64,000 nucleotides of DNA, from the NCBI GenBank assembly GCA_007693855.1, contig RECU01000038.1, positions 1 to 64,000 on the forward strand. Direction: 5' to 3'. Numbering within the stretch: position 1 is the stretch's first letter; each line of letters begins with the position of its first letter. The position numbers were made by a program, and so were the translations under genes. The stretch is from Gammaproteobacteria bacterium (GTDB taxonomy: Bacteria > Pseudomonadota > Gammaproteobacteria > Steroidobacterales > PWYM01). This document shows positions 13,599-59,779 of the stretch, in pieces. The notes under the pieces were generated by a model. The model did not search any database, was not told the DNA's origin, and was given only the letters and a program-made list of their open reading frames with translations.

Positions 13599-14339
13599 AT
13601 GCCCGCGCACGCGCCAGGGCTGCTGATCACCTGCGAACATGGCGGCAACCGCGTGCCTGCGCGGTATGCGGCACTGTTCGCCGGGCAGCAGGCGCTGCTC
13701 GAGTCTCACCGCGGGCTGGACATCGGCAGCCTGGTCATCGCCCGACAGCTCGCCCACCGCCTGGAGGCGCCACTGGTCGAGGCCACCGTGACCCGGCTGC
13801 TGGTGGACCTGAACCGCTCGCCGGGACGCGGTCGACGGTATTCGGAGATCACCCGCGGGCTGCCGGCGGCGGCGCGCGAGACGCTGGTCCAGCACTACTG
13901 GGCACCCTACCGCGGGCAGGTCGACGCCAGCCTCGCGCGCCTGCTGGCGCAGCATGGGCGGGTGGTGCATGTGTCGGTGCACACTTTTGCCGCGGTCCTC
14001 GACGGGGTGCGCCGCACGGCCGACATCGGGCTGCTCTACGACCCCCGGCGCGCGCCCGAGCGCGCGTTCTGCGAGCAGTGGCAGCAGACCCTGCGGCACA
14101 GCGCGCCAGCGCTCTCGGTACGCCGCAACTACCCCTATCTCGGCCGTGCCGACGGCCTCACCACGGCGCTGCGCCGGCGGCACCCGCCGAGCACCTACAT
14201 CGGCATCGAACTCGAGATCAACCAGGCCATCACCGCCCAGCCCGAGGCCGCCTGGGCAGGACTTCGCCAACAGCTGGCGGACAGCCTCGCGGCGGCACTG
14301 GTGGCCGCGCCCGCCCAGGTTTGGCAGACTCCGGGGTAA
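13599..14339 (+). CDS. N-formylglutamate amidohydrolase family protein
   Basis: 246 aa. N-formylglutamate amidohydrolase fold (zinc aminopeptidase-like) with ITCEHGGNRVP at the N-terminus, SHRGLDIG, LLVDLNRSPG and HVSVHTFAAVL, matching family metal and substrate motifs. Histidine-degradation genes (hut) are absent, so the HutG role is unlikely. In this operon it more probably cleaves an N-acyl amide of a glutamate-like compound. The start is 6 bp after the GCS2 stop. Last gene of the island; the S9 peptidase begins 23 bp later and could be cotranscribed. Confidence 0.87.
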   Translation: MPAHAPGLLITCEHGGNRVPARYAALFAGQQALLESHRGLDIGSLVIARQLAHRLEAPLVEATVTRLLVDLNRSPGRGRRYSEITRGLPAAARETLVQHYWAPYRGQVDASLARLLAQHGRVVHVSVHTFAAVLDGVRRTADIGLLYDPRRAPERAFCEQWQQTLRHSAPALSVRRNYPYLGRADGLTTALRRRHPPSTYIGIELEINQAITAQPEAAWAGLRQQLADSLAAALVAAPAQVWQTPG

Positions 14340-14362
14340 CTCAACGCCCCGGAGACTGCCCC

Positions 14363-16513
14363 ATGCTTGTACGGTCCCTCGCGCTGCTGGCGCTGCTGCT
14401 CGGCCTGCCGGCCCTGGCCGGTGATGGCCCACGACCGATCACCCATGAGGACCTGTGGCTGATGCCGCGGGTCGGCCAGCCGGAAATCAGCCCCGACGGC
14501 CGACAGGCCATCGTCGAGGTGACCCAACCTGCCTACGACAGCGACGAGCAGGCCTCGCACCTGTGGCTGGTGACCACCGACGGGTCCGGTCCGCCCCGCC
14601 AGTTGACCTTTGCGCGCAGCCGCGAGAGCGGCGTGACCTGGAGCCCGGACAGCCGACGAATCGCCTTCACAACGCGCCGCGACGGTGACAAGGCCAGCCA
14701 GGTCTATGTGCTGGACCTGGTCGCCGGGGGTGAGGCCGAGCGCGTAACCTCGGTCAGCACGGGTGCACGCGCGCCGCGGTTCTCGCCGGATGGCAACCGC
14801 ATCGCCTTCACCAGCGATGTGCCTCCGGGAGCCATGGATGACGAGGACAGTGCCCGCCTCCTCGAGGAGGAATCAGCGCGCAAGCATGAGGTCTACACCT
14901 ACACCGGCTTCCCGATCCGCAACTGGGACCGCTGGCTGCCCGAGCGTCAGCCGCGACTGCTGGTCCAGACCCTGGGCGAGGACGCCGCCATCGACCTGCT
15001 CGCCGGCAGCGAGCTCGTCACCCTGCCCGGCTACGGCGGGCGCAGCACGCCGGGCGGCAGCGAACTCGATGCGGTCTGGGCGCCGGATGGCGAGTCGCTG
15101 GTGTTCGTGGCCACCCGCAACCGCGACCGTGCCGCCTTCGACTTCACCAACACCGAGCTCTGGCAGGTGCCGGCCACGGGCGGCGAACCGCAGCGCCTCA
15201 CCGGCCACGACAGCGCCGAGGGCGGCGACAGCTGGGGGGCACCCGCGTTCAGCCCGGATGGCGCCAGCCTGTATGCCCTGCGCGTGCCGCGAACCGACCG
15301 CGTCTACAACGCCGCCCGCCTGGTGCGGCTGGACTGGCCGAGCGCCGAGCCGCGCGTCGAGATCGAGCTGCCCGAGGCGCGGGCCGTGCTGGAATACAGC
15401 ATCTCCCCGGACAGCCGCGAGGTCTTCATGCTCGCCGACGATGCGGCCCACGTGAAGCTGTTCCGCGCCGACAGCCGCGGCCGGGATATCCGCCTGGCCT
15501 TCGACATGGACAGCGGGATCTACACCGGGCTCTCCGGCGCGCGCCTGGGCAACCGGCCGCTGCTGCTGGCGAGTTTCCAGAGCGCAGTCAGTCCACCCGA
15601 GGTGGTGCGTCTCGACCTGCGCCGCGGGGGCCACCAGGCACTCACCCGCTTCACCGCCGAGCGGGTGGCCGAACTCGATCTCCAGCCGGTGGAGAATTTC
15701 TGGTTCGAGAACGCGGCCGGCGCGCAGGTGCACAGCATGCTGGTCCGCCCGGCAAACTTCGATCCCGAGCGTCGCTATCCGCTGTTCGTCATGATGCGCG
15801 GTGGGCCACACCTCAATTCCCGCGACTACTTCTTCCTGCGCTGGAACTACCACCTGCTGGCCGGTACCGACGTCGTGGTGCTGATGACCAACTACACCGG
15901 CTCCACCGGCTTCGGCGAGGCCTTCGCCCAGGCCATCCAGGGCGACCCCCTGGCCGGCCCGGCCGAGGACATCAACCAGGCCGCCGACGAAGCCATCGCC
16001 CGCTTCGACTTCATCGATGGCGAGCGCCAGTGCGCGGGCGGCGCGAGCTACGGCGGCCATCTGGCCAACTGGATGCAGTCGGCCACCGACCGCTACCGCT
16101 GCCTGGTCAGCCACGCGGGCCTGGTCAACCTCGCCACCCAGTGGGCCACCAGCGACGTGATCTACAGCCGTGAAGTGAACCTCGGCGGCCCACCGTGGCT
16201 GGACGAGGAATTCCCCGTCTGGCTGGAGCAGAATCCGATCCGCTTTGCCGAGAACTGGCAGACGCCGGTGCTGGTGACCATCGGCAAGCTGGATTACCGC
16301 GTACCCCTGGCCAACGTGCTCGAGTACTGGTCAGCACTGCAGCGCCAGCAGATCGAGAGCCGTCTGCTGGTCTACCCGAAGGAAAATCACTGGATTCTGA
16401 ACGGCCACAACAGCCGGCATTTCTACGGCGAGGTCACCGACTGGCTGGCACGCTGGCTGCTGGAGTCGCCGGAAGAGGCGATGGAAACAGCCGAGGCCGA
16501 ACCCGCCCAGTGA
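14363..16513 (+). CDS. S9-family prolyl oligopeptidase-like peptidase, exported
   Basis: 716 aa from the ATG at 14363, which follows CGGAGA and opens a signal peptide (MLVRSLALLALLLG...ALAG); the track start lies inside the previous gene. Beta-propeller repeats with PDG and SPD loops fill residues 50-430. The catalytic alpha/beta-hydrolase domain has GASYGG (Ser562), Asp644 in KLDYRVP and His676 in ENHWI, the ordered triad of acylaminoacyl-peptidase/DPP-type enzymes. It likely hydrolyses short peptides in the periplasm. The 3' end lies within a 16-bp tandem repeat. Confidence 0.93.
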   Translation: MLVRSLALLALLLGLPALAGDGPRPITHEDLWLMPRVGQPEISPDGRQAIVEVTQPAYDSDEQASHLWLVTTDGSGPPRQLTFARSRESGVTWSPDSRRIAFTTRRDGDKASQVYVLDLVAGGEAERVTSVSTGARAPRFSPDGNRIAFTSDVPPGAMDDEDSARLLEEESARKHEVYTYTGFPIRNWDRWLPERQPRLLVQTLGEDAAIDLLAGSELVTLPGYGGRSTPGGSELDAVWAPDGESLVFVATRNRDRAAFDFTNTELWQVPATGGEPQRLTGHDSAEGGDSWGAPAFSPDGASLYALRVPRTDRVYNAARLVRLDWPSAEPRVEIELPEARAVLEYSISPDSREVFMLADDAAHVKLFRADSRGRDIRLAFDMDSGIYTGLSGARLGNRPLLLASFQSAVSPPEVVRLDLRRGGHQALTRFTAERVAELDLQPVENFWFENAAGAQVHSMLVRPANFDPERRYPLFVMMRGGPHLNSRDYFFLRWNYHLLAGTDVVVLMTNYTGSTGFGEAFAQAIQGDPLAGPAEDINQAADEAIARFDFIDGERQCAGGASYGGHLANWMQSATDRYRCLVSHAGLVNLATQWATSDVIYSREVNLGGPPWLDEEFPVWLEQNPIRFAENWQTPVLVTIGKLDYRVPLANVLEYWSALQRQQIESRLLVYPKENHWILNGHNSRHFYGEVTDWLARWLLESPEEAMETAEAEPAQ

Positions 16514-16572: not shown

Positions 16573-16598
16573 GCCGGCGGCGCTCAGCCGCCGCCGGC
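16573..16598. terminator. GC-rich hairpin between convergent genes
   Basis: 9-bp perfect stem GCCGGCGGC / GCCGCCGGC with an 8-base loop. It covers the stop and last codons of the DUF885 gene and lies 60 bp after the S9 stop. No T-tract on either side, so termination is uncertain. Confidence 0.3.
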
Positions 16599-18452
16599 CT
16601 CGATCCAGTCGTCGACCACGCCATCGAGCAGCGCGAGCGGCATGGCGCCGGCATCGAGCGCCACCCGATGGAAATCGCGGATATCGAAGGCCTCACCGAG
16701 GGTCTCGGCCGCGCGCGAGCGCATCGCCTCCATCCGCTGCATGCCCACCTTGAAGGCGCAGGCCTGGCCGGGAATGACCAGATAGCGCTCGATCTCGGCG
16801 ACGACATCGCTCATCGGCATGCCGGTCACCCGGTGCATGTAGTCGATCCCCTCCTCGCGGGTCCAGCGCAGCTGATGCATGCCGGTGTCCACCACCAGCC
16901 GCACGGCGCGAAACAGCTCGGCCTGCAGGCGCCCGAGGTTGTCGAACGGGTCGTCGTGCAGGCCCATCTCCCAGGCCAGCTTTTCGGCGTATAGCGCCCA
17001 GCCCTCGGCATGGGCGTGCAGGCTGAGAGTACGGCGGAAGTCCGGGATGTCGGGGATGGCCTGCATGCGGCTGATCTGCAGATGATGCCCGGGAATGGCC
17101 TCGTGGTAGGCCAGCGTGCGCAGACCGAAGCGCGGGTGCTCTTCGACCGAGCGAAGATTGACGAAGAACATGCCCGGGCGCGAGCCGTCGATGGCCGGGC
17201 GCGAGTAGTAGGCGAGAAAAGCCGTGGGCTCACGGTATACGGGCACCCGATGCACCTCGACCTCGCCGACCGGCCCACGGTGAAACCAGCCCTCCAGGGC
17301 ACCGGCGGCTTCCTCGACGATCTCGCGGTACGCGGCGAGGATGGCCTCGCGTCCCGCATCACTGTCCTCGAACAGGAACCGCGACTCGGCATTCAGGGCC
17401 ATCATGCGCGCACCGACTTCCCCTTCGCAGTAGCCTTCGGCGCAGAGAATGGCGTCCATTTCGGCTTCGATCCGGGCCACCTCGGCCCGCCCCAGCGCGT
17501 GGATCTCCTCCGCGGTGAGCTCGGTGGTGGTGTGGCCGCGCAGCAGCCAACGGTAATAGGCTTCGCCCTCCGGCAACGCCCACACGCCGTGGTTGTCCTC
17601 AGCCTGCTCGAGCAGCCCGTCCAGCGACTCGATCAACAGACCATAGGCCGGCACCACATGCGCGCGCACCGCTGCAGCCAGTTCGGCCTCGAGCCCCGCG
17701 AGGCGCTCGGCCGACAGCACGCCCGTGCGCTCGGCGCGGGCGATCAGTTCGGTGACCAGCGGATTCGCGGCTGCAGGCCCGTCGATGAACGCCCGGCTGT
17801 CACGCAGCGTCTTCTCCAGCGCGAAGCGCGGCGGCAGCAGGCCCAGGCCTGCGCGATGCTCCACCACCTCGACGGTACCGGCGAACGCCGCGGGAAACTG
17901 CGCCAGCCGCTCGAGGTAGAAGTCGAGATCCCGCTCGTCGCGCAGCGGGTGCTGGGCGGTCATGAAGCCCGGCAGCAGGTTGTGGATCGCCATCAGCTGG
18001 TTGACCGGGTAGTCGTGCCACAGCCAGGGCGCGCCGGCGATCTGCTGATCCAGGATCCAGGCGAGGATGTCCAGCGACAGCTGTGCCTGCGCTGAAAGGC
18101 CGGGCTGATCGAAATCCGCGAGCGCCTCGCGGTGCCGACGGGCCAGTTCGAGCTCGGCCTTGGTCCGGGCCACTGAGGGGACGTCCAGCAGGCCGAGGAA
18201 GTCCGCCTCGCGCGGCGTCCCGGCCGTGGCCGCAGCCATGGCCTGGGGGCTGAAGGCCCGCCGCTCCTCGGCGACGCGCTCGAAAAAGGTCTCCAGGGCA
18301 ACCTCCAGAGCGGCGCCGCCAGCCGTCGCCGACATGACGTCCACCGACCCCGTGGCATCCTCCGTGACGACACCCTCTGTGGGCGCCTGACTACAGCCGG
18401 CGCACAGCAGCAGGCAGGCCAGGAGCAGGCCAGGGAAAGGCTGGGTATGCAT
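16584..18452 (-). CDS. DUF885-family putative metallopeptidase, lipoprotein
   Basis: 622 aa from the ATG at 18452; the track ORF extends 253 codons too far upstream. A lipoprotein signal ends LLLCAGC. The DUF885 domain fills the rest, with YHEAIPGHHLQ (HExxxGH, a probable zinc site about residue 450) and a later HAHAEGWALYAE Glu-containing helix as in gluzincin-like peptidases. Likely a periplasm-facing peptidase or ester hydrolase anchored to a membrane. A second DUF885 protein, fused to an NTF2-like domain, is at 56113-58323. Convergent with the S9 gene and divergent from PA2779. Confidence 0.88.
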   Translation of the reverse strand: MHTQPFPGLLLACLLLCAGCSQAPTEGVVTEDATGSVDVMSATAGGAALEVALETFFERVAEERRAFSPQAMAAATAGTPREADFLGLLDVPSVARTKAELELARRHREALADFDQPGLSAQAQLSLDILAWILDQQIAGAPWLWHDYPVNQLMAIHNLLPGFMTAQHPLRDERDLDFYLERLAQFPAAFAGTVEVVEHRAGLGLLPPRFALEKTLRDSRAFIDGPAAANPLVTELIARAERTGVLSAERLAGLEAELAAAVRAHVVPAYGLLIESLDGLLEQAEDNHGVWALPEGEAYYRWLLRGHTTTELTAEEIHALGRAEVARIEAEMDAILCAEGYCEGEVGARMMALNAESRFLFEDSDAGREAILAAYREIVEEAAGALEGWFHRGPVGEVEVHRVPVYREPTAFLAYYSRPAIDGSRPGMFFVNLRSVEEHPRFGLRTLAYHEAIPGHHLQISRMQAIPDIPDFRRTLSLHAHAEGWALYAEKLAWEMGLHDDPFDNLGRLQAELFRAVRLVVDTGMHQLRWTREEGIDYMHRVTGMPMSDVVAEIERYLVIPGQACAFKVGMQRMEAMRSRAAETLGEAFDIRDFHRVALDAGAMPLALLDGVVDDWIEAGGG

Positions 18453-18674
18453 ACTGAATTCTCCAGGGTCAGCGGGGCGACGGACCCTGCAGGCGCCACG
18501 CCGACCCGTCATGCGATAGCTGGCCAGTGTAGCGACCAAACCTCGTGGCTGCTTGCGCACGATCGCTCGGCTGCCTACCCTTGCGAGGCCGCTCGGGTCC
18601 GGAGTCGTGGCCGCCTTGTCGTGCAAGGCCCTGGGATCTCGTGCTGGCGGTCTTGACACCATAGGAGAATCCCG

Positions 18675-19055
18675 ATGAGAACGCCTTTCAACCTGCTCTC
18701 CGGCCTGCTCATCAGCCTCGCGCTCATCACCGGGGGCACAGCCAGCGTGGCTCATGGCGCGCTGCTCGACAGCAGCGGCCTGCTGGCTTTCGAGCAACGG
18801 ACCCAGCATCTGGCCAGCGTGGAACAGGCGCTCGCACAGGAGGCGCTGGCCGCACGGCTCGCGGCCATGGGCGTGGACGCGGCGGCGGTGAGCGCCCGGC
18901 TTGGCCAGCTCACCGACGAGGAATTGCAGCTGCTCGCCGAGCGACTGGATCAGCTGCCGGCCGGTGCCGGACTGCTGGAAATCATCGGCATCGTCTTCGT
19001 CGTGCTGCTGATCCTCGAGCTCGTGGGTGTCACCGACATCTTCAAGGCGATCTGA
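18675..19055 (+). CDS. PA2779-family small membrane protein
   Basis: 126 aa. N-terminal signal or membrane segment, a central helix-rich part (EQALAQEALAARLAAMG, TDEELQLLAERLDQLPAG), then a hydrophobic C-terminal segment IIGIVFVVLLILELVGVTDIF. This is the layout of the PA2779 family from Pseudomonas aeruginosa, always next to a PA2778-type cysteine peptidase, as here (4 bp apart). Ribosome site AGGAGAA precedes the ATG. Function unknown; membrane anchoring of the peptidase is a guess. Confidence 0.85.
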   Translation: MRTPFNLLSGLLISLALITGGTASVAHGALLDSSGLLAFEQRTQHLASVEQALAQEALAARLAAMGVDAAAVSARLGQLTDEELQLLAERLDQLPAGAGLLEIIGIVFVVLLILELVGVTDIFKAI

Positions 19056-19059
19056 GACC

Positions 19060-20064
19060 GTGCGCCGTCTACCCGGCAGCGGCCGGGTATGGCGGCGCGC
19101 CGCGCCGCTGAGTGTCCTGCTGCTGGCGGGCTGCGCCACCGGACCGCCTCCATTGATCGAGCACCTGCCGGAAGCGGCGCGCAGTGCCGGGCGTCTGCAG
19201 CAGGAGATCACGGCCGTGCCCTTCCATCCCCAGGCCGACTACCAGTGCGGCCCGGCGGCGCTGGCGACGGTACTCGGCTGGAGCGGCGTGCAGACCACGC
19301 CCGAGGCACTCGTGCCGCGGGTCTATCTGCCGGGCCGACAGGGGTCTTTGCAGCCGGAGATCCGCGCGACCGCGCGCGCTTTCAACCGACTGGCCTATGA
19401 GCCGGAACCCAGACTCGCCGCGCTGCTGGCCGAACTCGACGCCGGCCATCCGGTGCTGGTATTGCAGAAACTCGGCGTCGGCCCATGGCCGGGCTGGCAC
19501 TATGCCGTCGTCATCGGCTATGACGCGGTTGCGGAGGCGTTTCTGCTGCGCTCCGGGACTGAGTCTAGACTTCGCGTGTCCAGCCGACGTTTTCTGACGA
19601 GCTGGATCCGCGGTGGCACCTGGGCGCTGGTGGTCCTGCCCCCGGGGACGCTTCCGGCCTCTGCGGACGCCGCACGCTACCAGCATGCCGCCGCCGATCT
19701 CGAAGCCACCGGCAGCCCGGCGGCAGCAAGGGCCGCCTGGGCGGCCGGCGTCACCCGCTGGCCCGACGCCCCGGCCATGTGGTTTGGCCTGGGCAATACC
19801 GCCTACCGGCAGGACGACATAGCGGCTGCGCTGGCGGCTTTCCAGCGCGCCGTGGCGGTAGCGCCAACCCATGCAGCCTCGCACTACAACCTCGCCAGGA
19901 TTCACCTTGAGCACGGCTGTCTCGACCAGGCGAAAACCCACCTGGCAGCAGCCGAAGACGCTCTCGACGCCCTCCCGGGCCTGGCGCCGCTGGTCGCCGA
20001 TGCCCGCGAGGCGCTGGCGCGCGAGCGCGCGCGACCCATCGCACCGATCTGTCAGCTGCCCTGA
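19060..20064 (+). CDS. PA2778-family C39-like cysteine peptidase with TPR, lipoprotein
   Basis: 334 aa from a GTG at 19060; the track start is inside PA2779. Lipobox VLLLAGC. Peptidase part: ADYQCGPAALATVLG (nucleophilic Cys) and GWHYAVVIGYD (His). The C-terminal third is TPR-like (MWFGLGNTAYRQDDIAAALAAFQRA, then SHYNLARIHLEHG), a protein-binding platform. Same architecture as PA2778. A second, unrelated C39-like peptidase lies at 10134. Its substrate is unknown. Confidence 0.88.
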   Translation: MRRLPGSGRVWRRAAPLSVLLLAGCATGPPPLIEHLPEAARSAGRLQQEITAVPFHPQADYQCGPAALATVLGWSGVQTTPEALVPRVYLPGRQGSLQPEIRATARAFNRLAYEPEPRLAALLAELDAGHPVLVLQKLGVGPWPGWHYAVVIGYDAVAEAFLLRSGTESRLRVSSRRFLTSWIRGGTWALVVLPPGTLPASADAARYQHAAADLEATGSPAAARAAWAAGVTRWPDAPAMWFGLGNTAYRQDDIAAALAAFQRAVAVAPTHAASHYNLARIHLEHGCLDQAKTHLAAAEDALDALPGLAPLVADAREALARERARPIAPICQLP

Positions 20065-51796: not shown

Positions 51797-53059
51797 CTAT
51801 TCCCAGTCGTGGCGGTAGACCTGGCCGCCCTTCATCACGAAGCCTATGCTGCGCAGCGCCGAGATGTCCGCAAGCGGATCGCCTTCGATGGCCACGATGT
51901 CGGCATGCTTGCCCGGAGACAGCGAACCGATACTGTCGTCCATGCCGAGCATACGGGCCGATGCCAGCGTCGCCGAGCGCAACGCCTGCAGCGGTGTCAT
52001 TCCCGCCTCGACGTAGTACTCCGCCTCGCGCACGGTGGCGGTGGTGCCATCATTGGGCTCATAGGGAAACTGGTCGGTGCCGAGCGCGATGTTCACACCC
52101 TCCTCGACGGCCATCTCCAGGGCACGCCAGTGGTCCTGCCCCACTTCATAGACGCGGGCCATGTACCACGGCGGTGAACCGATGCGCTCGAAGAAATCGA
52201 AACTGGCCGGCTGGCTGACCACGATGGTGGGCACGTACCACGTCCCGCGCTCGGCCATCAGCTGCAGGGTCGGACGCTGCAGGAAATAGCCGTGCTCGAC
52301 CCCGTGCACCCCCAGCTCGACGGCCTCGCGGGTGGCATGATCCGAACCCGAGTGTGCCGTGACCTTGATGCCATGGCGCTCGGCGATGTCCACCACCGCC
52401 GAGATCTCGTCTGGCGTCATCAGGCCCTGGCCGATACCGCCCACCGGCGTGGCGATCCCCCCGGAGATGGCGATCTTCAGCCACTGCGCCCCTGCGCGAA
52501 CCTGCAGGCGCGCAGCCTTGCGCATCTCGTAGGGCCCGTCGTAGTGCGTACCCATGCTCGCCCCGTGGCCCCCGGTGATGTTGAGCATCTCGCCGGAGGA
52601 GACGATGCGCGGCCCTGGCAGGACCCCACGATCGATCGCCCGCGCCAGCGCGATGTCGGCATGACGCCGGTCACCGGGCTGGCGGATCGTGGTCACCCCG
52701 GCGTAGAGGCTCTGGCGCGCGTTGTCGGCCATGCGCAGCACCAGCTGCGCATCGCTCTCGGTAGCATGCTCCGCGGCCATGAGCCCGGGCAGGATCAGGC
52801 CAAGATGGACATGCATGTTCATCAGGCCTGGAATCAGCCATTTGCCCTCGAGATCGATACGCTCGGCATCTTCCGGCACCGGTGTCTCGGCCGCCGGCCC
52901 CGCGGCGGTGATCCGTCCGTCACGGATCACCACCACGGCATCGGGGATCACCTGACCCTCGATGACATCGACCAGCGCCGCACCGACAATGGCGCGGGTC
53001 TCGCCAGCGAGCAGCGGCTGACAGACCAGACACGCCGCGAGCAGCAGCAGTATTCTCAT
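51797..53059 (-). CDS. Exported amidohydrolase (prolidase/imidazolonepropionase-like)
   Basis: 420 aa. Signal peptide (LLLLAACLVCQPLLAG), then a TIM-barrel amidohydrolase: NMHVHLG for the HxH metal pair, WLKIAISGG bridging Lys, VTAHSGSD and GVEHGY His ligands, LGTDQFPYEP Asp. C-terminal SLSPGKHADIVAIEGDP is standard. Periplasmic enzymes of this group cleave Xaa-Pro dipeptides or cyclic amides. It starts 13 bp after the TonB receptor stop, so the imported substrate may be its target. Confidence 0.9.
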   Translation of the reverse strand: MRILLLLAACLVCQPLLAGETRAIVGAALVDVIEGQVIPDAVVVIRDGRITAAGPAAETPVPEDAERIDLEGKWLIPGLMNMHVHLGLILPGLMAAEHATESDAQLVLRMADNARQSLYAGVTTIRQPGDRRHADIALARAIDRGVLPGPRIVSSGEMLNITGGHGASMGTHYDGPYEMRKAARLQVRAGAQWLKIAISGGIATPVGGIGQGLMTPDEISAVVDIAERHGIKVTAHSGSDHATREAVELGVHGVEHGYFLQRPTLQLMAERGTWYVPTIVVSQPASFDFFERIGSPPWYMARVYEVGQDHWRALEMAVEEGVNIALGTDQFPYEPNDGTTATVREAEYYVEAGMTPLQALRSATLASARMLGMDDSIGSLSPGKHADIVAIEGDPLADISALRSIGFVMKGGQVYRHDWE

Positions 53060-53072
53060 ACCCGAGCCTCCG

Positions 53073-55376
53073 TTACAGCCGCACCGTCAGGCGTACCCCG
53101 TAGTTGCGGAAAGACGGCACGACATGCAGTCCGCCAAAGAAGGCTTTCTGGTAGGAGTTGGTGAAGAAATTGTTGTCGAACACGTTCTCCACGTAGGCGC
53201 TCACATCCCAGCGCTCGGTACGGATCCCTGCGCGCAGGTTCACCTGGTTGAAGCCCGGCACCTCCCAGGGGAAGCCTTCACGGACCAACGAGTTGATGTT
53301 GGCCACGTTGCGGCTGCGCGCAAACCACTCGCCACGCACGTAGGCGTCGTTGCCGTTGCCAAGCTCGAAGTTGTACTGGGCATCGGCGTTGGCGGTCAGC
53401 CGCGGGGCGTTCGGGATCCGACGGTCGGTGAGGTCGACGAACTGGCCGTCGATGAACGCGCCATCGAAGCTGTCGAACTTGGCGCTCAGATAGCCCACGC
53501 CGAGACCCACCACCAGGTTGTCGGTCACCAGTGCCAGGGCATCGACCTCGACGCCGTAGTTGCGTGCTTCGGCCGCATTGAGAATCGCGGCAATGAAGGC
53601 GATGTTGCCGTCCGGACGCTGCACACCAACGGCAGTGTTCACCTGCATGTCTTTCCAGTCCATGTAGAAGGCTGCAGCGTTCAGGCGCAGGCGCCGATCG
53701 AACAGCTCCGACTTGACACCGATCTCGTAGCTCCAGACCGTCTCCTCGTCGAAATCCTCACGCTCGCCTGCGCCCGCCAGCGCGATGTTCGTCTGGATAC
53801 CGCCGCTCTTGTAGCCCCGCGCCACGCTGCCATAGACGTTGATGTCGTCGCTCAGCGCGAAGGTCAACGCCGCCGAGGGCGAGAAGTCCGTGTAGCGGGT
53901 CGAGCCCTCGGCAAAGGCGGTGATTACGGGAGGATCACCGGAGGTGCGGAAGGTCAGCGAGTCGATCTCGTCGCGGGTCACGCGGGCGCCGAGCTTCAGC
54001 GACAGCTGATCGGTGATGTCGTAGAACAGCTCGCCGAAAACGGCATAGCTTTCGAACTCGCCGTTTGACCCCGAAGAGGTCACCTGCTGTCCGGGGAAAA
54101 ACGGCAGCCTGCTCACGAACTCATTGCCCGGATCGTTCGGATCGAAGGCGTTGCCGGCGAAGGTGAACTGGTCCTGGCTGCCGCGATCGCGCGCGTAGAT
54201 CACGCCGGCCGTCCAGTTCAGCGGGCCGTCGAGCGCCGAGACCAGGCGGAACTCCTGGGTGAAGGAGTCACGGAACAGCGGCTTGGTTTCAAAGAAAGCA
54301 TCGACGCTGCCGCCATCGATATCACCGCGCAGGAACTCGTCCTTGTCGATGTAGCCGGTGATGCTGATCAGCGAGAGATCATCCCAGTCGTACTGGGCGC
54401 GCGCCATCAGGTAATAGAACTTGTTGCCGACGCTCTGGCCGCGGTTGAAGTTCACCCGATTGCGGTTCTCGGGGAAAAAGCCCACGCCGTCGGGATTGGC
54501 CTCCGGCCCGAACAGGAAGGCACCGAAGGTGGACATCACGCCCGAGGGGACGCCTTCGCGCATGCCGACTTCCTCGTCGACATAGGTGCCGCTGACATCC
54601 AGGGTGAAGCGCTCGCTGGGCGTCCAGCGTACCGTGCCGCGCAGATACTGGTACTTGGAATCGTTGCCGCCACCGATGGGGTTGATATTGCGGATGTGGC
54701 CATCGGTCTGGGCGAACTTGCCGGCGAAGCGCACGGCCAGCGTGTCTTCGATGATCGGCACGTTGAGCACCGACTCGACATCGATGGAATTGAACCGCGC
54801 GTAGCCTACCGAGTTCTCCATGAACAGCTCGTTGTCAGGCTTGCGGGTCACCAGGTTGATCGCGCCACCGACCGCATTGCGGCCGAAGCCGGTGCCCTGC
54901 GGACCCCGCAGCACCTCGATGCGCTCCATGTCCAGGATCGGTGGGTTGACGGTCGCCTGGACCACGTTGAACTCGTCGACATAGAAGCCGAAGGACTGGG
55001 GGCGCACATCGATATCGCGCGAGACCTGGTTGGTCACCCCGCGGATACTGAGCTCACGGCGGTCGCGCGAACCTTCCTGGATGAAGCTCACGTTGGGTGT
55101 CCGGAAGAAGAAATCATCCACGCCCTGGATGTTCGAGAGCGTGATGTCTTCGGCCGTGAAGGCCGTGAGGCTGATCGGCACGTCCTGCGCCACGTCTTCG
55201 CGCCGCTGGGCGGTGACCACCACCTCGTCGAGCACCCGCGCGCCCTGCTGGGCGTTCGCGGGCACCTGCCAGCCGGCAGCCAGCAGCGTGACGCCGCAGA
55301 GTGCGGCGACCTGGCGTCTGAGGTGACGACGGCCGTCGCTGACGGCGGGCGGGGTGGACTCCTGGATGTTGCTCAC
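53073..55376 (-). CDS. TonB-dependent receptor
   Basis: 767 aa from a GTG at 55376 that follows GGAGAGAGAAACC; the upstream ATG at 55400 lacks a ribosome site. Long N-terminal leader with Arg-rich RRHLRRQ then a hydrophobic signal ending PANAQQ. TonB box LDEVVVTAQRR, plug with RGVTNQVSRD and RGPQGTGFGRNAVGGAINLV, then a beta-barrel ending in FRNYGVRLTVRL. Groups with receptors of the oligomer/steroid type, not siderophore. Operon: NTF2-like, receptor, amidohydrolase, ACAD. Confidence 0.92.
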   Translation of the reverse strand: MSNIQESTPPAVSDGRRHLRRQVAALCGVTLLAAGWQVPANAQQGARVLDEVVVTAQRREDVAQDVPISLTAFTAEDITLSNIQGVDDFFFRTPNVSFIQEGSRDRRELSIRGVTNQVSRDIDVRPQSFGFYVDEFNVVQATVNPPILDMERIEVLRGPQGTGFGRNAVGGAINLVTRKPDNELFMENSVGYARFNSIDVESVLNVPIIEDTLAVRFAGKFAQTDGHIRNINPIGGGNDSKYQYLRGTVRWTPSERFTLDVSGTYVDEEVGMREGVPSGVMSTFGAFLFGPEANPDGVGFFPENRNRVNFNRGQSVGNKFYYLMARAQYDWDDLSLISITGYIDKDEFLRGDIDGGSVDAFFETKPLFRDSFTQEFRLVSALDGPLNWTAGVIYARDRGSQDQFTFAGNAFDPNDPGNEFVSRLPFFPGQQVTSSGSNGEFESYAVFGELFYDITDQLSLKLGARVTRDEIDSLTFRTSGDPPVITAFAEGSTRYTDFSPSAALTFALSDDINVYGSVARGYKSGGIQTNIALAGAGEREDFDEETVWSYEIGVKSELFDRRLRLNAAAFYMDWKDMQVNTAVGVQRPDGNIAFIAAILNAAEARNYGVEVDALALVTDNLVVGLGVGYLSAKFDSFDGAFIDGQFVDLTDRRIPNAPRLTANADAQYNFELGNGNDAYVRGEWFARSRNVANINSLVREGFPWEVPGFNQVNLRAGIRTERWDVSAYVENVFDNNFFTNSYQKAFFGGLHVVPSFRNYGVRLTVRL

Positions 55377-55441
55377 GGTTTCTCTCTCCAACTGAAGCAT
55401 GATGGGATGCGATAGGGCTGCCCGGGCAGCGCGAAGCTTGC

Positions 55442-55906
55442 TTAAGGTGCCGGCGTGCCGACGAAATTGATCAGGGCGATCCGCCCGTCGGTGATCAGCG
55501 CGTAGCCGACCACGCGCTCCCGGTGTTCCACGCCGTCACGACGCGAGTGCACCAGGTGCGAGGTGAAGGTCCGGGAGCCTGCGGAAAACCCCTGGTCGAA
55601 CGGCAGTTCGATTTCCACCGCCTCGGTGGCCGCCTGGATATTGCGGAAATGGCGGGCAAGCGCAACGGGGCCCACGCCGCGCAGGTTACCGTTGATGATC
55701 ATCACCGCGTCTTCGGTGTAATAGCGGGCAAAGGCCTCCGGGGTGAAGCCTTCAGGATCCTGATAGGCCTCGTTCCACCACTCGAACATCGCCTCGAGCA
55801 CCCGGCCCGGGTCTTCCTCGGCGCGCGCACTACCGAGCGACAGCAGCGACAGCAGCGACAGCAGCAGCACCAGCCACACTGCCCGCCATGCGAGTTTTCC
55901 ATCCAT
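55442..55906 (-). CDS. NTF2/SnoaL-like exported protein
   Basis: 154 aa from the ATG at 55906 after GGGAGTGGG; the track start is 64 codons early. Signal peptide (AWRAVWLVLLLSLLSLLSLGSARA). The mature NTF2-like domain begins MFEWWNEAYQDPEGF and is nearly the same as the N-terminal domain of the divergent 736-aa protein at 56113. No known catalytic residues. A steroid-isomerase-like or ligand-binding role is possible. Head of the minus-strand operon with the receptor. Confidence 0.82.
   Translation of the reverse strand: MDGKLAWRAVWLVLLLSLLSLLSLGSARAEEDPGRVLEAMFEWWNEAYQDPEGFTPEAFARYYTEDAVMIINGNLRGVGPVALARHFRNIQAATEAVEIELPFDQGFSAGSRTFTSHLVHSRRDGVEHRERVVGYALITDGRIALINFVGTPAP
55731..55780 (-). 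repeat. 50-bp perfect inverted repeat, copy in the NTF2-like gene
   Basis: The reverse complement of this segment equals 56218-56267 exactly over 50 bp, with partial similarity on both sides. It encodes the EWWNEAYQDPEGFTPEAF region of the NTF2-like domain. Confidence 0.95.
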
Positions 55907-56112
55907 GAATCCCACTCCCTGCCGAGAATTCCGGCTGCGTCCCCTGCCGCCAGGGGCTGTCGCAGCCTGCCAACAGTGCGCTAGCAAACAACAAAAGCTG
56001 GCATTACGCAATCCGGATCGCGAGAATCTCGGCGAGGGAGACCCATCCGCTCCACGAGGAGGACGCAGCAGCGATTCCGCGTGGCGCGTGAACAACACTC
56101 ACGGAGGACATC

Positions 56113-58323
56113 ATGATGCGGCGGACACTGGTGCTGGGGGCCTGGCTGCTGGTCACGCCCGTATTTGCCGCGGCGGAGCCGCCTCGCCCGGGAGACGTGC
56201 TGGTGGGCATGTTCGAATGGTGGAACGAGGCCTATCAGGATCCTGAAGGCTTCACCCCGGAGGCCTTCGCGCGGTTTTTCGATGACGACGCGGTGATGGT
56301 CATCAACGGCAACGCCCGTGGTCCGGGGCCGGTGGCCATCGCCCGGCATTTCCGTGCCATTCAGGCCGCCGTCGACGAGGTCGAAATCCTCCTGCCGTTC
56401 CGCGAGGGCTTCGATGAGGGCGCGCGCAGTTTTACCTATCACTACACGCGTGCCGAGGTCGACGGTGAGACGCGGTACTCCCGCGTCATGGGCTATGCGC
56501 TGGTCCGCAACGGACGCATCGCGCTGATCGATTTCATCAACCTGCCAATCGAAGGGGTGCCCCCGCCGGCGCTCGGGCATGATCGCGGGGCCGATGCCCA
56601 TCTGCTCTGGCTGCTGGAGGCCCTGTTCGAGGAGTTGCTGGAAGCCAGCCCCATGCTGGCGGCCCGCCTCGACCGCGGCGTCCCCCGCGGCGAATGGGAC
56701 GGGTTCTCCGCCGCGGCCCGTGCCGCCGAGGCCGAGCGCCTGCAGCGCTGGCAGGCCCGACTGCAGGCTGAGGTCGACCGCAGCACACTCTCGCCGCGTG
56801 CCGCGCTGCAGCTCGACGTCGCCCTCGAGGAACTGGCGCTCAGGCTCGAACGGCTCGACTGGTGGGCCCAGAGCTACCCGCTCAACCAGATCGTCGGCCT
56901 GCATGTCGAGATTCCGAACCTGCTGATCAACCACCATCCCATCAGCAACGAAGCCGATGCGCGAGCCTACATCCAGCGCCTCGAGGGGGTCGGCCCCCTG
57001 CTCCGGGAGTTCGTGGCCGACATGGCGCTGCGCGAGGAGGCCGGTGTGCTGATGCCACGGGCGGTCTACCCGCGACTGATCGAGGCGACGCGCTCGCTGC
57101 TCGGCGGCGCACCGCTCGAGGCGGGTGAGGCCCACCCGCTGTGGCGCGACTTCCAGCGCAAACTGGCCGCGCTGGAACTCCCGCCCGCGCGCGAACAGGC
57201 GCTCATGGCCGACGCCGAGGCCGCCCTTCGCGGCGAATTCCGCGCCGGCTATGGCGCCTTGCTGGCACGTCTCGAGGACGAAGCCGCGCGCACCCCAATC
57301 GACGGCGGTGTGGGCCAGCTCCCTGACGGCGACGCCTATTACCGGTTCCTGCTCCGGCTGTTCACCACCACCGACATCAGCCCGGAGGAGGTGCACGCGC
57401 TGGGCCTGGCGGAAGTTGCCCGCATCCGCGAGGAGATGCGGGCGCTCATGCGTGAAGTCGGCTTCGAGGGGGAACTCGCGGAGTTCTTCACACAGTTGCG
57501 GGAAGACGAGCGGTTCCTGCTGCCGGATGACGATGAGGGTCGCGAGGCCTATCTGGCCCTCGCCCGCGAGCTGGTCGCCGGCGCGATGGCCCGCCTCGAC
57601 GAGGTGGTCACCGTGCCGCCCGACAGCGACGTGGTGGTTCGGCGCTTCCCGGCCTACCGCGAAGCCGGTGCGCCGGGAGGCTTTTACTCGGCACCCGCCG
57701 AGGACGGTTCGCGCCCTGGCATCATCGAGCTCAATCTCGCCAACATGGCCTCCAACCCGCTGTATGCCCTCGACGCACTGATCTACCACGAAGGCCCGCC
57801 CGGACATCATCTGCAGATCGCCAGCATGCTCGCCGACCCGGCGATCCCGCAGCTGCGCAAGGTCTATGTCTGGTGGTTGAATACCGCGTTCATCGAGGGC
57901 TGGGCACTGTATGCAGAACTGCTGGCCTCGGAGATGGGGCTGTACCGCGATGACTACGCCGAGTTCGGGCGGCTGTCCGCGGAGCTCTGGCGCGCGGTGC
58001 GCCTGGTGGTCGACAGCGGTCTGCACAGTCGCGGCTGGACCCGCGAACAGGCGCTCGACTACATGGCCGACACCCTGCCCGCGACCGCAGAGGCGAACGC
58101 GCGCGAGGTCGATCGTTATCTGGCCGTGCCCGGCCAGGCCACGGCCTTCAAGATCGGCATGCAGCGGCTGCTGGAACTGCGCGCACAGGCCCGCCAGACA
58201 CTGGGCGAGGACTTCGACATCCGGGCGTTCCACGACGAGATTCTGGCCCACGGCAACGTTCCGTTATGGGCGATAGAACAGGCCATCGCGCAGTGGTTGG
58301 AGGCGCAACAGGTGGCGCAGTGA
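56113..58323 (+). CDS. NTF2-like/DUF885 fusion protein, exported
   Basis: 736 aa; ATG at 56113 with GGAGG upstream. Signal peptide (LVLGAWLLVTPVFAAAE), an NTF2-like domain (about 25-145, near-duplicate of the divergent gene), a short linker, then a DUF885 domain with YHEGPPGHHLQIAS (HExxxGHH metal site) and FIEGWALYAE. DUF885 proteins elsewhere lack the NTF2 part, including the paralog at 16584. The fusion suggests the NTF2 domain recognises or orients a substrate for the putative metallo-hydrolase. Confidence 0.9.
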   Translation: MMRRTLVLGAWLLVTPVFAAAEPPRPGDVLVGMFEWWNEAYQDPEGFTPEAFARFFDDDAVMVINGNARGPGPVAIARHFRAIQAAVDEVEILLPFREGFDEGARSFTYHYTRAEVDGETRYSRVMGYALVRNGRIALIDFINLPIEGVPPPALGHDRGADAHLLWLLEALFEELLEASPMLAARLDRGVPRGEWDGFSAAARAAEAERLQRWQARLQAEVDRSTLSPRAALQLDVALEELALRLERLDWWAQSYPLNQIVGLHVEIPNLLINHHPISNEADARAYIQRLEGVGPLLREFVADMALREEAGVLMPRAVYPRLIEATRSLLGGAPLEAGEAHPLWRDFQRKLAALELPPAREQALMADAEAALRGEFRAGYGALLARLEDEAARTPIDGGVGQLPDGDAYYRFLLRLFTTTDISPEEVHALGLAEVARIREEMRALMREVGFEGELAEFFTQLREDERFLLPDDDEGREAYLALARELVAGAMARLDEVVTVPPDSDVVVRRFPAYREAGAPGGFYSAPAEDGSRPGIIELNLANMASNPLYALDALIYHEGPPGHHLQIASMLADPAIPQLRKVYVWWLNTAFIEGWALYAELLASEMGLYRDDYAEFGRLSAELWRAVRLVVDSGLHSRGWTREQALDYMADTLPATAEANAREVDRYLAVPGQATAFKIGMQRLLELRAQARQTLGEDFDIRAFHDEILAHGNVPLWAIEQAIAQWLEAQQVAQ
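56218..56267 (+). repeat. 50-bp perfect inverted repeat, copy in the NTF2-DUF885 gene
   Basis: Exact inverted copy of 55731-55780, 437 bp away. Lies in the codons for the first helix of the NTF2-like domain. Confidence 0.95.
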
Positions 58324-58408: not shown

Positions 58409-59779
58409 GTGACAGTACAGGGCGACAGACAGTGGTCCTCGGGCCTGATGTTCCTCGCGGCGGCCATCGGCAGCGCCGTGGGCATCGCCAACATCTGGAA
58501 GTTCACCTACGTGGCCGGCGGCAACGGCGGCGGTGCGTTCGTGCTGATCTACGTGCTGGCACTGTTCGGTGTGGCCCTGCCGGCGCTGGTCGCGGAGCTG
58601 ATGATCGGGCGCCGTGGCGGGCGCAGCGTGGTCGGCACCATGGCGGTGCTGCGCCAGCGCGAAGGCATCGGCCGCGGCTGGAAGGCCTATGGCGTCATGG
58701 CGGTGACCACGGTGTTCATCGCCCTGTCGTTTTACTGCGTAGTGGCGGGCTGGACCATCGACTATTTCCGCGTCGCCCTGTCCGGGGCGTTCCGCGACAT
58801 GAACGCCACGAGCTCCGGTGCTGCGCTCGCGGCCATGCATGCCAGCCCGCTGCGGATGATCCTGTTCCAGACGCTGTTCATCGGCCTGACCGTCTGGATC
58901 GTCGCCGCGGGCATCCATGCCGGCCTCGAGCGCGCGCTGAAACTGCTGACCCCCGGGCTGTTCCTGATCCTCCTGATCATGCTGGGCTACGCGATGATCG
59001 CCGGCGATGCCGCCGCGGGACTGACGTTTCTGTTCCGACCGAACTGGAGTGAGCTGACGCCAGCGGTGGTGCTGTTCGCGGTGGGCCAGGCGTTCTTCTC
59101 ACTTGGCGTCGGTGTCGGCGTCATCATGACGATCGGCGCCTACATGGACCGCAACATCCCGATCGTGCCCTCCGGCATCGTGATCGCGGCGGCCGACGGC
59201 GCAGTCGCGCTGATCGCGGCCATGGTGATGTTCCCGATCGTCTTCGCCCAGGGCCTGTCCCCCGCGCAGGGCCCCGGGTTGATCTTCGCGACCCTGCCCG
59301 TGGCCTTCGGCCAGATGACCGGTGGCGCGATCCTCGGGCCGATGTTCTTTCTGCTGATGGCCTTCGCCGCGCTGTCCTCCTCGATCACGCTGCTGGAGAG
59401 CATCATCGCGACCCTGGAGGACTACACGGGGCTTACGCGCATCCCGCTGGCGCTGCTCACGGGGCTGGCGCTCTGGCTGGTCGGCCTGGGGACGGTGTTC
59501 TCGTTCAACCTCTGGGCGGATGTCTACCCACTGGGATTCATCACGGCGCTGGAAGGTCGCACGATCTATGACCTCAAGGGACTGGCCGTGGCGAACGTGC
59601 TGATGCCCGCCGGCGGCATCCTGCTAGCGGTCCTCGCCGGCTGGATCATTGCCAGGCGCAGCTCCGCGGAAGAACTGGGCATGCGCCGTGAGTGGGCGTA
59701 TCGCGGCTGGCGGCTGCTGGTACGCTGGGTCGTGCCCTGCGTGGTGATCCTGGTGTTCGCGGTCAACCTGCTGGCCTGA
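58409..59779 (+). CDS. Sodium-dependent transporter of the NSS/SNF family
   Basis: 456 aa from a GTG at 58409. At least ten membrane helices; GSAVGIANIWKF and GGNGGGAFVLIY are the TM1 Na/substrate and TM2 motifs of the neurotransmitter:sodium symporter family (LeuT-like). The bacterial members carry amino acids. Located after the NTF2-DUF885 peptidase-like gene, an amino acid product of its activity could be imported. Long loops are few, as in bacterial forms. Confidence 0.92.
   Translation: MTVQGDRQWSSGLMFLAAAIGSAVGIANIWKFTYVAGGNGGGAFVLIYVLALFGVALPALVAELMIGRRGGRSVVGTMAVLRQREGIGRGWKAYGVMAVTTVFIALSFYCVVAGWTIDYFRVALSGAFRDMNATSSGAALAAMHASPLRMILFQTLFIGLTVWIVAAGIHAGLERALKLLTPGLFLILLIMLGYAMIAGDAAAGLTFLFRPNWSELTPAVVLFAVGQAFFSLGVGVGVIMTIGAYMDRNIPIVPSGIVIAAADGAVALIAAMVMFPIVFAQGLSPAQGPGLIFATLPVAFGQMTGGAILGPMFFLLMAFAALSSSITLLESIIATLEDYTGLTRIPLALLTGLALWLVGLGTVFSFNLWADVYPLGFITALEGRTIYDLKGLAVANVLMPAGGILLAVLAGWIIARRSSAEELGMRREWAYRGWRLLVRWVVPCVVILVFAVNLLA

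Follow-up and report, generated by a model that had tools for sequence, protein, structure and literature searches.

Probable recurrent gene conversion at a 50-bp island shared by head-to-head NTF2-like genes, one of them fused to DUF885

Two divergent genes for NTF2-like proteins share a perfect 50-bp inverted repeat; this identity is very probably explained by recurrent, very local gene conversion between the close inverted copies, judging from sequence comparison with related species. One gene encodes a short exported protein (the solo gene) and the other an NTF2-DUF885 fusion. Both lie in the window, the 64,000-nucleotide stretch of contig RECU01000038.1 that was analysed, which belongs to a 3.28-Mb genome (G000). 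Two more species of the genus, G001 (locus L031) and G003 (locus L026), have this head-to-head pair too, among the same neighbours. A fourth species of the genus, G002, carries the two paralogs on separate contigs. The pair is known from three species, and all genomes are metagenome-assembled or draft. Feature coordinates are given in Table 1.

Table 1. Features of the locus, in window coordinates
Feature	Position	Strand	Basis or remark
Amidohydrolase, Xaa-Pro dipeptidase-like, cluster partner	51797..53059	-	Pfam; NCBIfam XaaProDiPepCaul E=1.9e-90, below cut-off
TonB-dependent receptor, downstream of solo gene, cluster partner	53073..55400	-	Pfam; receptor and NTF2 gene are neighbours across the order
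Solo NTF2/SnoaL-like exported protein, 154 aa	55442..55906	-	ORF; SnoaL_2 sub-threshold; AlphaFold2 model; orthologs in L031 and L026
Wider diverged inverted match, paralogous domain	55556..55811	-	74%, ungapped 256 bp; partner 56187..56442
Arm 1 of perfect 50-bp inverted repeat, probable conversion island in solo gene	55731..55780	-	
Conserved intergenic block, non-coding	55958..56028		71 bp with 92% identity in L026, similar in L031; flanks diverge
NTF2-DUF885 fusion protein, 736 aa	56113..58323	+	ORF; DUF885 match; full-length orthologs 85% (G001) and 83% (G003) identical
NTF2-like domain of fusion	about 56176-56541	+	
Wider diverged inverted match, paralogous domain	56187..56442	+	74%, ungapped 256 bp; partner 55556..55811
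Arm 2 of perfect 50-bp inverted repeat, probable conversion island in fusion gene	56218..56267	+	
DUF885 domain of fusion	about 56674-58287	+	
SNF-family sodium-dependent transporter, downstream of fusion, cluster partner	58409..59779	+	Adjoins an NTF2 gene also in L032, L051 and L053

One correction apart, the gene models of a preliminary description of this DNA stand. For the solo gene, the ATG ending at 55906, which opens a normal signal peptide, is the most likely start; the GTG further upstream, at 56098, is not required. In the fusion, DUF885 (PF05960) spans residues 188-725 and is matched above the Pfam cut-off (E=1.7e-156, 523 bits). The HEGxPGH motif of the family is kept, and the alignment shows no variation at H559, E560 and H565; PDB relatives are 3o0y, 3iuk and 3u24. 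The Pfam sequence model SnoaL_2 reaches only 17.4 bits in the window, under its cut-off of 27; the match exceeds the cut-off in the relative L054. An AlphaFold2 model (pLDDT 84) matches SnoaL/NTF2-like PDB entries in Foldseek (best E=3.7e-8), and this modelling supports the assignment to a SnoaL-like NTF2 fold. The full-length AlphaFold2 model of the fusion was set aside (pLDDT 62, falling below 50 in the NTF2 domain and in part of the DUF885 core). Open reading frames, Pfam and structural matches together bear out the description of head-to-head NTF2 paralogs, one joined to DUF885. The part of the solo gene that codes for the signal peptide also contains a 9-bp tandem repeat, AGCGACAGC, at 55836-55871, which is absent as such in the two related species.

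The perfect 50-bp inverted identity with diverged flanks was likewise confirmed, inside the 74% match. The second-longest stretch of identity between the two G000 domains is 12 bp, and no third copy of the 50-mer occurs in the G000 genome, even with three mismatches allowed. When aligned codons were shuffled, none of 20,000 trials gave a run of 50 bp or more. The arms are separated by 437 bp; this spacer holds both promoters, both signal peptides and, for each NTF2-like domain, its first codons.

An identical run occurs at the same place within each genome that carries the pair: 50 bp in G000, 56 bp in G001 and 48 bp in G003. The next longest run is 13 bp in G001 and 17 bp in G003, and with the flanks diverged the island boundaries are sharp. 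The island is identical between the paralogs of each genome, yet it differs between genomes, mostly at synonymous sites altered in both copies: both read CAGGATCCTGAAGGC in G000, CATGATCCCGACGGC in G001 and CAGGATCCCGAGGGC in G003. Amino acids change together as well, with AYQDPEG in both G000 copies and AYHDPDG in both G001 copies.

Variable sites are few in the island, and their pattern is opposite to that of the rest of the domain. Counts of sites sorting by genome and by paralog are, within and outside the island respectively, 6:0 and 1:65 for G000-G001 (p=4e-8), 4:0 and 4:53 for G000-G003 (p=1e-4), and 4:0 and 7:55 for G001-G003 (p=5e-4); since the island was delimited from G000, p-values that involve G000 are post hoc, and the independent tests are those of G001 and G003 alone. 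In the AU test, the paralog tree is rejected for the island (p=1.7e-5); the rest of the domain follows the paralog tree, and there the concerted tree is rejected (p=8.6e-5). Where the G000 pair encodes identical amino acids, the codon is also identical in 15 of 16 cases within the island, compared with 30 of 57 elsewhere (p=0.002, again post hoc); the same test gives p=0.003 and 0.0012 in the other two species. The synonymous-site comparison that the preliminary description had proposed thus finds excess within-genome identity at the island in all three species with the pair. Likeness is greater within than between genomes, synonymous sites included, in the island only, which is the mark of concerted evolution.

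These patterns bear on several other explanations. The earlier description had offered gene conversion or strong constraint at the DNA level. The first is supported by homogenisation of the same island in three species, with species-specific sites common to both copies; the second is rejected, as the island sequence is not the same from species to species. A fixed DNA element under constraint was ruled out on the same ground. In comparisons across species, island and flanks are equally diverged, and the island has no excess of codon identity.

The protein segment encoded by the island is conserved in the family (MFxWWN...GFT), so chance combined with protein-level conservation of a shared helix-loop was also considered. 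Protein conservation across the family is 0.57 in the island versus 0.53 in the rest, and the maximum lies outside the island. Constraint on the protein cannot by itself account for homogenised synonymous sites, nor for the lack of homogenisation in blocks that are equally or more conserved; the site patterns refute this reading, which is highly improbable. Copying of one arm onto the other during assembly might be suspected in draft genomes. It is hardly conceivable here: the island recurs in three separate assemblies, each time with another sequence, and ordinary reads are longer than a 50-bp repeat.

Covarying arms could also mimic conversion if an RNA or DNA hairpin between them were under selection and paired changes preserved it. 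Such a hairpin is very unlikely, as it would require a transcript across two divergent promoters and an unfavourable loop of about 440 nt. In addition, the perfect runs are all Watson-Crick in the three species, with no G-U intermediates, and no Rfam match reaches the gathering score.

The arrangement of the arms raises the question of inversion. Perfect inverted repeats flank the divergent promoter region, and both proteins remain in frame after a flip; the arms could therefore be crossover sites of an invertible switch in which the intervening 437 bp or so turns, swapping promoters and N-termini, and reciprocal exchange would homogenise the arms too. This is unlikely. The preliminary description had suggested looking for inversion of the middle segment, and none is seen: the assemblies of all three species have the same orientation (scores of 125-255 versus 13-14 for the inverted form), and the solo and fusion N-termini remain with their own bodies throughout. 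No dedicated recombinase was found near the arms; resolvases (PF00239) are absent from the genome and tyrosine recombinases (PF00589) from the contig. A related idea is even less likely: homologous inversion in part of the population might swap promoters and signal peptides reversibly between the receptor-linked solo gene and the fusion, with the island maintained for that purpose.

The non-coding block between the genes is probably a shared regulatory region. A sigma-70 scan found no match in it, the Rfam scan gave only sub-threshold matches and none for the block, and it was not found in G002 or in the order-level loci.

In a tree of the NTF2-like domain with the island left out, one G002 copy groups with the solo genes, at 85% support, and its paralog lies beside the fused genes. 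Because each G002 copy falls with one window paralog, the duplication appears to predate both the divergence of G002 and the head-to-head arrangement known here; the previously suggested origin, a local inverted duplication, is therefore not supported. Alternatively, the G002 copies may have been separated later. One of the G002 loci has the gene order NTF2-receptor-DUF885-amidohydrolase. In the other, the NTF2-like gene immediately precedes a DUF885 gene that is separate and read in a different frame, and the NTF2-DUF885 fusion is for this reason most simply explained by joining of tandem neighbours. The G002 paralogs differ across the island stretch and are not homogenised, although this control is a single species whose two copies are older and more diverged. 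Across its several contigs, G002 has 19 matches to the fusion protein, mostly to DUF885, versus 2 to 5 in relatives.

The following sequence of events is proposed. Old, diverged NTF2-like paralogs would have come to lie head to head, with one joined to its tandem DUF885 neighbour. The close inverted copies could then exchange sequence, presumably by RecA-type recombination or by template switching at the replication fork. Most reports of template-switch conversion concern spacers much shorter than about 440 bp. Only the stretch of about 50 bp would be long enough to pair, so that pairing may perpetuate itself; conversion would be confined to the island because no other identical run exceeds 12-17 bp. 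For efficient recombination, E. coli is usually said to need roughly 20-30 bp. Restriction to one stretch fits such a threshold for pairing, since the other runs are 17 bp or less. Conversion would recur at the island and preserve its identity while the remainder diverges under separate selection.

The G000 and G001 lineages each carry private two-state changes, and the third species shows identity as well; together these suggest at least three homogenisation events. The direction of transfer can be read at the right end of the island, where the G003 fusion keeps A..Q as in the G002 relative and the G000 and G001 fusions carry the solo-type P..R; transfer there was probably from solo to fusion.

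Gene conversion is an already known process, and this is a small, clear case of it. The closest precedent is the Brucella omp2a/omp2b porin pair, linked paralogs that face in opposite directions about 830 bp apart and exchange segments through gene conversion (PMC7050475). The likeness lies in linked, inverted paralogs with gene conversion; however, the porin tracts vary and can homogenise a whole gene, whereas here one island of about 50 bp recurs at a constant position in paralogs that are about 70% identical. In yeast, inverted-repeat arms are homogenised by template switching (PMC8604942). As in those cases, imperfect coding inverted repeats become perfect with several amino acids changed, but the published spacers are limited to 70 bp or less, with shorter ones favoured, and the spacer here is about 437 bp. 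Prokaryotic concerted evolution, in tuf and other genes, makes paralogs closer within than between species via recurrent conversion (PMC6053082); it spans whole genes, unlike the short island in otherwise diverged copies seen here. In mitochondria of Nematomorpha, coding sequences contain perfect inverted repeats with jointly evolving arms (PMC6649704). That is another genetic system, with many repeats and close arms.

Both the domain and the fusion are uncommon. With the genome of the window included in each count, the NTF2-like domain is carried by 12 of 396 genomes of the order, 2 of 369 in the class sample and 4 of 399 in the phylum sample. The earlier impression that the fusion is uncommon is borne out: in a sample of about 1,150 genomes, fusions were confined to three species of one genus, G000, G001 and G003, with distant ones below detection possible.

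Across the order, an NTF2-like gene adjoins or lies near a TonB-dependent receptor in all nine loci compared (L050-L058). These loci also contain DUF885 genes (often two copies), usually an amidohydrolase resembling Xaa-Pro dipeptidases, and sometimes an SNF transporter. DUF885 belongs to a metallopeptidase clan (Peptidase_MA), and a zinc site has been predicted in a DUF885 protein (PMC12572635); the literature on DUF885 function is thin. Judging by its neighbours, the cluster is a predicted locus for peptide uptake and degradation, in which the solo and fusion proteins probably act. The fusion and the order-wide neighbourhood suggest that the NTF2-like protein works jointly with DUF885 peptidases. 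A second DUF885 gene is found elsewhere in the window (16584-19211), 41% identical over the DUF885 part, and adjoins a prolyl oligopeptidase-family S9 gene at 14078-16513.

If gene conversion is the correct explanation, the locus is a natural case of conversion between close inverted copies that is limited to one island of about 50 bp in three species. The island could help to gauge the minimum length and similarity needed for such exchange outside model bacteria.
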